Shown: one piece after another, positions 5,170 to 43,630 of the stretch
Numbering within the stretch: position 1 is the first letter of the stretch
Layout: each line of letters opens with the position of its first letter
Made by a program: the position numbers and the translations under genes
Notes under the pieces: generated by a model
Database searches by the model: none
Seen by the model: only the letters and a program-made list of their open reading frames with translations
What the model was told of the DNA's origin: nothing
Assembly (NCBI GenBank): GCA_036925085.1
Contig: JAUPFP010000033.1
Span: 1,224,501-1,288,500, forward strand
From: Brachycybe producta
Taxonomy: Eukaryota > Arthropoda > Diplopoda > Playtdesmida > Andrognathidae
Direction: 5' to 3'
Length of the DNA stretch: 64,000 nt

Positions 5170-5664
5170 TTCCTTATTAATATTAATATAAGTTTTATAG
5201 AACAGTAGTCAGACCAGCTATGTTGTATGGGTCAGAATGTTGGGCAATCAAGAAGGTGCATGCAGATAGAATGCAGGTAGCTGAGATGAGAATGCTAAGG
5301 TTTATGAGTGGGGTGACCAGAAGGGATAGGATCAGAAATGATTTTATTAGGGGTAGTGTAGGGGTAACAAATATAGTAGAAAAGATGCAGGAAAATAGGC
5401 TGCGGTGGTTTGGGCATGTCCTCAGGAGCGGAGAAGATGGGATGCTGAGGCAGGCAATGAACTTAGACCTGGGAATAAAACGGGTTAGAGGAAGACCCAA
5501 GCAAACCTGGGATGTGGTAGTAAAACGGGATATGGTGGCATGTGGGGTCACTGGGGGCTTGGTGCAAAATCGGAACGAGTGGAGAATTAGAACCAGCAAG
5601 GCCGACCCTGCTGCTTGCGAGATAAGGTACAGGAAATGATGATGATGATTCCTTATTAATATTA
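5170..5664 (+). mobile_element. 5'-truncated RTE-like LINE insertion with target-site duplication
   Basis: The body (about 5186-5648) is bounded by a perfect 16-bp direct repeat, TTCCTTATTAATATTA, at 5170-5185 and 5649-5664. It ends in a short ATG/TGA trinucleotide tail. A short microsatellite tail and variable 5' truncation are characteristic of RTE-clade LINEs. A further copy of most of the 16-mer (5154-5168) lies just upstream, suggesting that the target site was already locally duplicated. Confidence 0.85.
5190..5639 (+). pseudogene. C-terminal fragment of RTE-type endonuclease/reverse transcriptase
   Basis: About 149 codons are open in one frame, entering with K-F-Y-R-T-V-V-R-P-A, then MLYGSECWAIKK, and including ENRLRWFGHVLRS and RGRPKQTWD. 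These motifs are typical of the region after the reverse-transcriptase core in RTE-like LINE polyproteins, which are often annotated as craniofacial-development-protein-2-like. The endonuclease and catalytic core (the Y-x-D-D box) are missing because the copy is truncated at its 5' end. The stop codon is part of the TGA-repeat tail. No frameshift was seen in what remains. The first ATG at 5220 is internal to the ancestral protein and is not a real start. Confidence 0.85.
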
Positions 5665-18999: not shown

Positions 19000-19445
19000 G
19001 GCGCCAGAAAATGGTTTTGCCTAGAAGCAGAGCTAAGCTTTGGCATCATAGCAATAATTAGAGCAAGGCAAGAGATGCACCTGCCTCGGCCGCAAAGCTC
19101 AGGGCGCGAAAATAGGAACTCAAAATAACTAGAATGGTAATTAAGGAACACTGGCGTAACTAGGTTTTTGCGCCAAGAGCAAAAAAAAACCAAGCGCTCC
19201 CTAATTTATTTTTTTGCAGAATTTGGTTAGAGGCTAGAAATTCATAGATGAAACTAGCATCTAGCATAACCTTATTATCAAGACTAAAATGAAGTTTTTT
19301 TTGTTGTTTAAAAATATTAATTATTAAATAGTAAACCTTGAAAGAAAATTTTGAAACTAAAAATGAGATATGAAAGCGCCCTTTTATAGACTGCCGCCAG
19401 GAGCAATCATGATTCAGTTAGATCTTGCTTCCATTGTGGTGACAA
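19000..19445. mobile_element. hAT-like MITE remnants (two pieces)
   Basis: 19149 starts ACTGGCGTAACTAGG-type sequence that follows the 7617-7982 element through TTAGAGGCTAGAAATTCA and TGAAACTAGCATCTAGCATA. The 3' end is replaced by the minisatellite from 19446. Just upstream (19055-19130) lies a fragment resembling 53525-53640 (GCAAGGC, then CTGCC and TAGCTAGAAT-like blocks), probably another hAT-type relic. Confidence 0.65.
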
Positions 19446-19804
19446 TTTCAACTTTTTTTGAAAATTTCAACTTTTTGAAAATTTCAACTTTTTGAAAATT
19501 TCAACTTTTTGAAAATTTCAACTTTTTGAAAATTTCAACTTTTTGAAAATTTCAACTTTTTGAAAATTTCAACTTTTTGAAAATTTCAACTTTTTGAAAA
19601 TTTCAACTTTTTGAAAATTTCAACTTTTTGAAAATTTCAACTTTTTGAAAATTTCAACTTTTTGAAAATTTCAACTTTTTGAAAATTTCAACTTTTTGAA
19701 AATTTCAACTTTTTGAAAATTTCAACTTTTTGAAAATTTCAACTTTTTGAAAATTTCAACTTTTTGAAAATTTCAACTTTTTGAAAATTTCAACTTTTTG
19801 AAAA
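19446..19804. repeat. 17-bp minisatellite, left arm of an inverted pair
   Basis: One 19-bp founder-like unit followed by 20 perfect tandem copies of TTTCAACTTTTTGAAAA (19465-19804), with no substitution or indel. Each unit is itself nearly palindromic. The perfect homogeneity implies recent expansion or conversion. Confidence 0.95.
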
Positions 19805-19876
19805 ATAGAACAAACGTGGCTTTTGCTTATGATAGTCAATAGGCGGAGAAGCCAACGTTTCTTCAATTTTTCTCCA

Positions 19877-20074
19877 GTTGAAATTTTCAAAAAAGTTGAA
19901 ATTTTCAAAAAAGTTGAAATTTTCAAAAAAGTTGAAATTTTCAAAAAAGTTCAAATTTCCAAAAAAAGTTCAAATTTTCAAAAAAAGTTCAAATTTTCAA
20001 AAAAGTTCAAATTTTCAAAAAAAGTTAAAATTTTCAAAAAAAGTTAAAATTTTCAAAAAAAGTTCAAATTTTCA
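19877..20074. repeat. 18-19-bp minisatellite, right arm of an inverted pair
   Basis: About 11 units of GTTGAAATTTTCAAAAAA, the reverse complement of the left-array unit plus one or two A. The inner four units are uniform. Outer units change GTTGAAA to GTTCAAA or GTTAAAA. The spacer (19805-19876) and outer flanks (CCATTGTGGTGAC; GTCACTCC-like CACTCCAATGG) also show imperfect mirror symmetry. Confidence 0.92.
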
Positions 20075-20079
20075 CTCCA

Positions 20080-20815
20080 ATGGGAAACAATGCATTACTG
20101 CTCTGTTTGGCATTTATTGAATTGAGACAAAACATTGAATGTTCAATTGAATGTTTTTCTCAATTCGCGCTAAAAAGGCGCCCCCATTTAATTTAAATAA
20201 ACCAACCAATAATCTTAAGAGTTAACAAATTAAGAGCTCTTCTTCTGATCCACTCCTACTATCTACTTTTTTAGTCATATTAAACTACGAAAAAAAAAGT
20301 TATATAAAAAAGAATATTAAATGTCATTTTGGATGAATACAAAAAAAAACTAAGAGGCAAATTTCAACAAAATATCCATTAAGGAAATCAATACGCTGTT
20401 AATTACGTAAAATGAGAAGAAAATTACATTATTCACAATATACATATATAAAAAAAATGACTGTCACTCTTTCTAACTTAAAGCACATTTGTTTTTGTTT
20501 TTTATTATTTCTTTTGTTTCTAAGTTCAATCTTATGAAAGAAAATAATATATAAAGAAAAACTGTCTCAACGTTTGCATAGTAAAAACAAAAACAAAAAA
20601 AGAACTTTTCGCAAAATAAAAAAATTGTGTCACGCAAATGTGAGGAGGGGGAGTGTGGGTGAATCCGAAGAAAAAACACACAACCTGCATATATATTTTT
20701 CTACCTATATATTTAGAGAAGGAAAAAAAACCTCCCCTTACACATACACATCCATTACATGCACACACACATCCAAATATTAAGGTATTTGCTAAAGTGA
20801 AAATATCGATTATTT
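20080..20815. other. A+T-rich DNA with CA-rich stretch
   Basis: Contains a CA-rich segment near 20740-20775. No gene was recognised. Confidence 0.55.
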
Positions 20816-20820
20816 ACAAG

Positions 20821-20884
20821 TCAGAGAGAGAGAGAGAGAGAGAGAGAAATTGTTGCATATATAAACTAAGATGAAGAGAGAGAA

Positions 20885-20920
<36 letters not shown>

Positions 20921-21282
20921 TGAGAGAAAGAGAGGTAGAATGAGAAAGAGAGAGAATGAGAAAGAGAGAGAGAATGAGAAAGAGAGAATGAGAGACAGAG
21001 AGAGAGAGAGCAATAGAGAGAAATAGAGATAGAGAGAAAAAGAAAAAGACAAGAGAGAAAGAATGAGAGACACAGAGAGAGAGAGAGAGAGAGAGAATGA
21101 CAGAGAGAGAGAGAGAGAGAGAATGACAGAAAGAGAGAATGACAGAGAGAGAATGACAGAGAGAGAGAGAGAGAGAGAGAATGACAGAAAGAGAGAATGA
21201 CAGAGAGAGAGAATGACAGAGAGAGAGAGAGAGAGAATGACAGACAGAGAGACAGAGAGAGAGAGAGAGAATGAGAGCAAAA
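20821..21282. repeat. ~460-bp GA/GAGAAT polypurine tract
   Basis: Nearly all-purine on the + strand: GA dinucleotides with interspersed GAATGAGA and GAATGACAGA units. A mirror-rich polypurine tract of this kind can adopt triplex (H-DNA) structure. The 160- and 214-codon minus-strand frames here (Ser/Leu-rich) are translation artefacts of the repeat. Confidence 0.95.
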
Positions 21283-41597: not shown

Positions 41598-42155
41598 ATG
41601 TACTAAGTTCTTATAAAAGTTATATAGAAAGTAGAAATGATGATTTGTGCAGTAGTAGTAGTAGTAGTGTAAAAAGTAGATTTTCTAAACCACAGTGGCA
41701 CCAAAGTCAGTATATTTTTCTTCAAATATTTAGCATGACAGCTAAATCAGCAAAGAAGAAGAAGAAACTTGGTGAAAGAATCTTATCTTTTGGCAAAAGC
41801 TTAAGTACAAATCCGTGTAAGGTACCAATCATGAATGATGGGGTCAATTTAAAAAGACAGCGAAAAAAAACAGAGAACAGAAGAGAGATAGATATTTTTT
41901 ATCTAAGATATAGTCACAAGTTCTTGTGAGATATATGTATATATCATATACATGTATATTACAGATTTTTTAAGAAACATATATTCATTCCTTAATTCTG
42001 TTTTTGAAACATGGCACTTTTCATATAAAAGATGGCAAAAAGTAAAGAAAATTTTATGAAAAATCACCAAAACCAGTTTTAAACACATCAAACATTGTTC
42101 ATATATAGGCCTAATATTATAATGCAAAACTTTTCGTCATAAAGTTACGGGAATA
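41291..42155. other. A+T-rich DNA with (GA)n at 41557-41593
   Basis: A GA run of about 18 units and an AGT trinucleotide run near 41651-41668. The 164-codon frame 41435-41929 spans these simple repeats and has no recognisable domain. Confidence 0.6.
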
Positions 42156-42300
42156 ATAATGTTGGCACTAAATATTATTGTCGCTTAGAAGAAAATAAAA
42201 ACACTTTTAAAAAATATTTTTAACGTTTTAATTATGTATCTCATAATTTAAGAAAACATTAACCTACCTTCACAATAATTAGTTGTGTCTCATTTGAATG

Positions 42301-42497
42301 CTCAGAAAAAGAGAAAAAACCCTGATTGCACACACAACTGGCAATTTTTTTATTTTTCCGTTAGCATTGGCATACATGTATGTAGTAAGGAAGAGGTGAT
42401 AATGCCTTTATACGCGGGTCAATACTAACGGGAAATTAAAGAAACAAATTTGTCAGTTGTGATTGCGATCAAGGCTTTTTCTCCTTTTTTTTGGAGC
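42301..42497. mobile_element. ~197-bp foldback inside the larger palindrome
   Basis: CTCAGAAAAAGAGAAAAAAC, then TGATTGCACACACAACTGGC and TTTTCCGTTA, mirrors 42426-42497 (TAACGGGAAATTAAAG, TCAGTTGTGATTGCGATCAA, TTTTTCTCC). It is present on only one side of the outer palindrome, so it looks like a secondary insertion. Confidence 0.75.
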
Positions 42498-42530
42498 TGA
42501 ACAAATAGGATACAATAAATTACAGTTGGG

Positions 42531-42862
42531 GGTCACTACAGCTACTAAGGCTCACAAGAGCTACTAGGGGGAGAACAGCTACTTGTGTCACTACAGCTAC
42601 TAAAAAAATAACCCTTTCTCCCAAACCTAACCGAACCTTACCTAATGAAACGTAACCTAACCGAACCGAACCGAAGCGAACCTTACCTAACTGAACCTTA
42701 CCTAATAAAACCTAACCGAACCTTACCTAACCTAAGCAAACCGAAACTAACCGAACCTTACCGAATCTAACCGAACCTAAACTAAACTTAATGACTCAAG
42801 TAGCTGTAGTGACCGTATTGATAAATTAGAAAGGCCTATATTTTTTGGTAGCTGTAGTGACC
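42531..42862. repeat. Inverted GGTCACTACAGCTAC repeats flanking a pentamer array
   Basis: GGTCACTACAGCTAC at 42531-42545 and a GTCACTACAGCTAC copy at 42587-42600 face inverted copies at about 42800-42814 and 42848-42862. Weaker copies (CTCACAAGAGCTACT; ATAGGTGTAGTGAGCC) lie between and outside them. This looks like a subterminal repeat set around the array. Confidence 0.85.
42624..42793. repeat. 34-unit AACCT/AACCG pentamer array (TTAGG-like)
   Basis: The five-base phase holds from 42624 to 42793 without a single indel. Units are AACCT, AACCG, TACCT and rarer variants (AATGA, AACGT, AAGCG, AAACT). AACCT is the complement of TTAGG, the telomeric repeat of most arthropods. Here the array is interstitial and degenerate. 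Confidence 0.9.
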
Positions 42863-43013
42863 CAAATAGGTGTAGTGAGCCAGTCCCTAAATTACGGAGG
42901 TAGGTTAATATTTTATTAATTATGAGATATGGTTTTTTTTAAATTGTACTCAAGACATTAAAAATATTTTTAAAGCGGTTTTTTCTAAGTGACTATATGA
43001 TCTTTAGTGATGC

Positions 43014-43630
43014 AAGCGTCCCTACTCACCCTCCGTGGAGCTAATCGAGCCTCTTAACAAGGGATTAAAAAAACTTTATAGACCATTGTTACAATCTTTA
43101 TGTTATTGCAATTTGAAACTTCATTTTTTAAACTTCTGATAAAAATCATTTTAATTTATCATTTATTAAGAATTTTAATTGAAATTTCAGGCTTTATAAT
43201 GCAGTTAAATGCACTAACTTGTTTTCAAATATCAAGAGCATAGAATTGCTATGGTTATAGCCTCCTTTCTCATCTAATATAACAAAAGAGGCTACCTTAT
43301 ATTTCTATGGTCTGCATTGTCTAAAATTAAATAGTTAGCATCCTTGGTATGTTCGGATTCATTTAGAAATTAGTTGAGTATTCTAGGCGGTCCCTACAAA
43401 AATTTCAAAATTTGAACAAGAAATTAATTATAATGAATTAATTAGTCGATGGATTGTTTCGATTATTCACACAATTGCATGTCGCCGAGTAACAGAACAA
43501 CATGCAATGGATTTCCAGATCTAGGCTTATAATATTATGGCAACAATCCGGATAAATAACGAGCAACATTTTTGGTATCCATCCTCGCATCTACCCAAAT
43601 TTCGTTTGCTTTTGTTTTTACCTAACATAT
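43014..43630. other. A+T-rich DNA, no gene seen
   Basis: Nothing recognised beyond ordinary A+T-rich sequence. Confidence 0.55.

Follow-up and report, generated by a model that had tools for sequence, protein, structure and literature searches.

A tandem-repeat MITE with telomere-type pentamers nested in a foldback MITE of Brachycybe producta

Introduction

Does a palindrome with telomere-like repeats at its centre mark a former chromosome end, a single mobile element or something more composite? The question is raised by an ~850-bp structure in the 295-Mb genome of Brachycybe producta (442 contigs), found within a 64,000-nucleotide stretch of DNA, C33:1224501–1288500, which we refer to as the window. 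A sequence-only reading had distinguished three layers, namely outer inverted arms, a secondary foldback on one side only and a motif-bounded core containing AACCT-type pentamers, and had proposed either a mobile element carrying a telomere-like satellite or a hairpin-capped interstitial telomere remnant. Here, we present evidence that the locus is, with high confidence, a tandem-repeat-bearing MITE nested in an older foldback MITE, the three layers representing two unrelated mobile elements. Both element families are scattered through the B. producta genome. Tandem-repeat-bearing MITEs are a class already described (PMC12628747, PMC4079207); the core element is unusual in its telomere-type cargo.

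Results

The core is a dispersed element with defined ends

The core occupies 364 bp of the window (42524–42887, + strand) and is delimited by its ends, its target duplication and its family. Two copies of the 8-bp sequence TAAATTAC, at 42516–42523 and 42888–42895 (both +), sit exactly at its edges. The 5′ domain (42525–42620, +) consists of the terminus GTTGGGGGTCACTACAGCTAC and further CACTACAGCTAC-type motifs, and the 3′ domain (42791–42887, +) of inverted motif copies and the terminus ...GTAGTGAGCCAGTCCC. The termini are imperfect inverted repeats: GTTGGGGGTCACTACAGCTAC and GGGACTGGCTCACTACAGCTAC have CACTACAGCTAC in common and differ in their outermost bases. CACTACAGCTAC is repeated subterminally, in forward orientation towards the left end and in inverted orientation towards the right end, with up to 13 inverted copies at a spacing of mostly 18 bp in one family member (L032). 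As had been described, GGTCACTACAGCTAC-type motifs flank the core on both sides, with seven matches (at most 3 mismatches) in the window, six of them in the core, compared to 0.47 expected. In the window copy, no stop-to-stop reading frame of at least 90 aa overlaps 42105–43050.

Genome-wide searches revealed a large family. With one mismatch allowed, GGTCACTACAGCTAC occurs 1749+1766 times, compared to 10+8 for the reversed control, while an 18-mer from the 5′ end of the core is found at 220+214 = 434 sites and a 16-mer from its 3′ end at 283+271 = 554 sites (at most 1 mismatch, control 0 in both cases). Among the matches listed for contigs C1–C4, 50 of 75 exact 5′ ends have an exact 3′ end on the same strand at most 10 kb away, and the elements paired in this way have a median length of 623.5 bp (range 279–1343). 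Out of 100 ends listed for each side, the pairing drew on 75 5′ ends and 83 3′ ends, so that both sets covered C1–C4, and a given 3′ end was allowed to count for two 5′ ends; the remaining 25 5′ ends may pair with a mismatched 3′ end, the listed matches all being exact.

We then compared individual copies at their ends. From 32 core loci (L001, L006 and L009–L038), 28 copies were used, with L020, L028, L031 and L037 left out for their ambiguous ends; the sample is non-random, comprising the window's own copy, 25 copies found by similarity to it and two from a motif-pattern list, and the ends were hand-picked as the outermost of several fuzzy matches. Within this sample, 12 of the 28 copies have a perfect 8-bp target duplication, compared to 0 of 756 mispaired flanks, and 20 match at six or more of the eight positions, compared to 13 of 756; the other eight have fewer than six matching bases at the fixed offset. 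Two loci (L021 and L016) appear to hold adjacent or nested core-family copies.

The pentamer array varies in length and shares variants between copies

The array of the window copy (42621–42790, +), delimited by TRF and by a pentamer parse, comprises 33 in-phase pentamers of AACCT/AACCG type with no phase shift, so that the indel-free array of the sequence-only reading stands with a count of 33 rather than 34. Ten of the pentamers are AACCT, eight are AACCG and the others are variants; self-identity is 0.73 at a lag of 30 bp, 0.78 at 60 bp and 0.68 at 5 bp, and the array is more than a simple 5-bp repeat.

An AACCT-type array lies on the same strand in all 28 core copies, with scores of 82–308, compared to 4–7 on the other strand. 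Among their 1313 pentamers AACCT is the commonest (433), AACCG accounts for 229, and AATGA and TACCT are also frequent. No phase shift is seen in 17 of the 28 copies, with 17 shifts in total per 1313 pentamers, and 25 copies have a best repeat lag divisible by 5 and between 15 and 60 bp, the exceptions being L006 (10 bp), L017 (5 bp) and L019 (26 bp). By eye, most arrays start with a form of CCTAACCTAACCGAACCTTACCTAATGAAACC and end with a form of AAACTAAAC(G/T)TA.

The internal sequence of the arrays also recurs between copies. Sixty-one per cent of the 20-mers in the window array are present in the other 27 copies and 39% are absent from them, while 500 shuffles of pentamer order gave a mean of 14% present and a highest value of 33%; taking all copies together, 43% of array 20-mers recur between copies, compared to 11% in shuffles. 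Since many of the array variants recur from copy to copy, a large part of the variation came by inheritance and was not acquired after insertion, and the preserved phase therefore needs no special cause; a further reason for its preservation is that the longer repeat units mostly have lengths divisible by 5 bp (L019, with its lag of 26 bp, excepted). The survival of phase, previously regarded as unusual for a decaying microsatellite, is thus shared by most copies and loses its singularity. We also considered it as a sign of selection and rejected this, the shifts being judged to show no excess of preservation beside a 5′ domain that differs from the majority sequence by 2.1–10.5% in 19 copies (~9.5% in the window copy).

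The array is mostly confined to the core family. A 17-mer from it, AACCGAACCTTACCTAA, occurs 846 times in the genome (control 0), and on contig C1 up to 17.31 Mb, 16 of the 17 AACCGAACCTTACCTAA matches lie at most 1 kb from an exact core-motif copy (by eye, among the matches listed), the single exception being at C1:7912537. Array length, which had been suggested as a point of comparison between copies, ranges from 120 to 480 bp (median 220) in the 28 copies and reaches 2132 bp in L093 (C2:3318900–3321500), a core-family element with matching ends and a target duplication matching at seven of eight bases by eye. The best lag in this long array is 25 bp, corresponding to 25-bp units built of pentamers, and its position inside L093 indicates that arrays can grow to small-satellite size in place.

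The array unit matches the apparent host telomere motif

The host telomere appears to be of TTAGG type: five TTAGG units in tandem occur 558+7295 times in the genome, four TTAGGG units in tandem are absent from it, and contig C1 carries, after an N run, a perfect CCTAA repeat of at least 1525 bases in left-telomere orientation (one contig end seen). The majority base at every phase of the window array equals this motif, bearing out the likeness noted at the outset, and a random pentamer would fall in the telomere-motif class in ~1 of 102 cases (classes counted). It is plausible that the array was derived from real telomeric DNA.

An ordinary minisatellite in the founder MITE, matching TTAGG by coincidence, is an alternative that differs from a telomeric source in the origin of the array only, and we give it a substantial chance, if one short of even. 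Exact AACCT makes up only 433 of the 1313 pentamers, with AACCG, AATGA and TACCT frequent, and longer units of 15 to 60 bp dominate in 25 of the 28 copies, as a minisatellite history would have it; the agreement of the majority base at every phase of the window array, and the rarity of such a match among random pentamers, argue instead for telomeric DNA.

Much less probable is an interstitial telomere remnant, in which telomeric DNA left by a chromosome fusion or by telomerase-mediated break repair would later have decayed. The TTAGG-type host telomere and the rank of AACCT as the commonest pentamer agree with such a remnant, but the arrays lie inside a transposon with target duplications, and their borders and variants are common to copies at many places, for which reason we reject a decayed telomere. 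Nor does the window locus consist of pure or nearly pure telomere repeats that mark a unique breakpoint outside a transposon. The hairpin cap proposed earlier fares no better, as the hairpin belongs to a separate foldback element and the degenerate array has the borders of its family.

The outer arms form a foldback element interrupted by the core

Both inverted layers outside the core are real. The outer arms, at 42166–42269 (+) and 42898–43009 (−), pair with an alignment score of 55, compared to a best score of 32 in 500 shuffles, and the one-sided foldback, in which 42306–42369 (+) pairs with 42420–42488, scores 59, compared to a shuffle best of 25. In aligned copies, this inner part of the left arm is continuous with the arms. 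Removal of 42524–42887 together with one copy of TAAATTAC restores the outer element, and 14 copies aligned with this empty site of the window show two arms running from the ends to the middle over ~490 bp. As delimited by arm pairing and by its copies, the outer element spans 42166–43029 (no strand assigned), the insertion included; its diverged ends may extend to ~42110 and ~43050, the termini being too diverged to place exact ends or a target duplication. Its long inverted arms enclose a short middle and its copies are dispersed, which is the make-up of a foldback MITE.

The position of the core explains the asymmetry of the palindrome. Because the core inserted into the right arm, severing the outer part of that arm (42898–43009) from its remainder, the outer arm parts pair across the core and the inner parts pair wholly to the left of it. 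Insertion into the right arm thus by itself yields a secondary foldback on one side only.

We searched for the outer family with the left flank (42150–42524) and the right flank (42876–43040) alone, retrieving 50 loci that represent 37 distinct places, the window included. At all 36 other places a continuous BLAST match of at least one arm crosses the insertion point; both orientations (both arms) are continuous across it at 25 of them, the match to the empty-site query reaches at least 300 bp at 19, and none has a core motif inside the matched range. Likewise, the 27 other core loci are all free of outer-family matches at E 1e-5. The outer family occurring without the core, and the core family without the outer, the arms, the one-sided foldback and the core with its array are two elements.

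A single composite element, in which arms, foldback and array move together, is suggested by layers that adjoin and look nested in the window, but we consider it barely credible in view of the 36 core-free outer places, the 27 core loci free of the outer family, the 8-bp duplication exactly at the core's edges and the failure of any other core-similarity match, among those listed, to extend beyond ~42517–42893. The sequence-only reading had named arms without the array as grounds against such a composite, and dispersed copies with the same layout and defined termini as support for a mobile element; on the evidence above, its mobile element carrying a telomere-like satellite survives for the core alone, with its dispersed copies and 8-bp duplications, and falls for the ~850-bp whole.

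Discussion

The evidence fits a cut-and-paste mechanism in which the transposase is provided in trans. The core would be a non-autonomous DNA transposon of this kind, with clustered inverted motifs near its ends around an internal array of variant telomere-type pentamers, and such a transposase would have inserted it into an older foldback MITE, in the right arm, producing the 8-bp target duplication. The repeated CACTACAGCTAC motif is a putative transposase-binding site, and the array, perhaps seeded by telomeric (TTAGG)n DNA, would lengthen and shorten mostly by multiples of 5 bp through slippage or unequal exchange.

At 8 bp, the core's target duplication has the length seen in hAT elements, and P, Merlin and some Mutator elements can leave duplications of this size as well. 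A search of the genome for MULE transposases gave 21 matches, ten of them on contig stretches covered by the lists of family ends, and among the matches that could be compared with these lists (10 of 21) no transposase or autonomous partner linked to the core ends was found; one of the ten (C1:4996294) lies ~2.3 kb from a core-family copy, outside the copy. At C1:17311303–17314581, two outward-facing core-family 3′ ends stand 3.28 kb apart and mark a candidate long or autonomous copy.

As a short non-autonomous element with a variable internal array, the core resembles the tandem-repeat MITEs, which include miDNA4 and Xstir of Xenopus and are described as short and non-autonomous, holding an internal array that varies in copy number (PMC12628747); for miDNA4, capture of a pre-existing tandem repeat followed by array expansion has been proposed (PMC12628747). 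Elements of Donax trunculus, cited in PMC12628747, and the hitchhiking (GTCY)n MITEs of insects, cited in PMC6947457, are likewise MITEs that contain tandem repeats. In contrast to these, as compared by description rather than by sequence, the unit of the core matches the apparent telomere motif of its host. Tetris, a foldback element of Drosophila virilis, is reported as noncoding, with 8–10 bp target duplications, internal repeats that expand into kb-size arrays and no autonomous copy found (PMC4079207). The foldback layout, the absence of coding capacity, the similar duplication size and the expanding internal repeats recall the present locus; however, the ~220-bp repeats of Tetris lie inside its inverted arms (PMC4079207), whereas here the pentamers are enclosed by short inverted ends and the foldback belongs to another family.

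Telomere-like sequence within a DNA transposon is also a feature of the ciliate TBE (telomere-bearing elements), although there, as described, it lies at the tips of the inverted repeats and a transposase is encoded (PMC7325037), while the core has an internal array and, in its window copy, no reading frame that reaches 90 aa. Abundant, dispersed telomere-motif arrays are likewise reported in the shrimp Penaeus monodon, where (AACCT)n loci average 316 bp; in contrast to the arrays studied here, ~70% of them are perfect or nearly so, and the available text of that report mentions no transposon carrier (PMC3124438). Literature searches for a MITE with a TTAGG array returned no matching report as judged by title or start of abstract, and the titles among the matches listed for CACTACAGCTAC were on unrelated subjects.

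Apart from the telomere motif, the locus is unremarkable, a member of one repeat family inserted in a member of another. With that motif, a DNA transposon offers a concrete route for scattering telomere-motif arrays without chromosome fusion or telomerase repair, and caution is needed before an interstitial telomere signal is taken for the scar of a fusion. A bolder proposal, which we regard as unlikely, is that the core family is a vehicle of captured telomeric DNA from which hundreds of interstitial telomere-like tracts were seeded, with at least one of them grown to a 2.1-kb satellite within its element, and that such tracts might bind telomere proteins or seed telomere healing and chromosome rearrangement.

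Other features of the window

A Pfam search of three reading frames elsewhere in the window (5187, 13604 and 36874) gave no match; the first, a 150-aa frame at 5187–5639 (+), is similar in appearance to the C-terminal portion of a non-LTR retrotransposon protein. At 19440–21270, the window holds a 17-bp tandem repeat in 21 copies (99% match), followed in turn by a 19-bp repeat in 10.7 copies and a degenerate AG run of ~400 bp.
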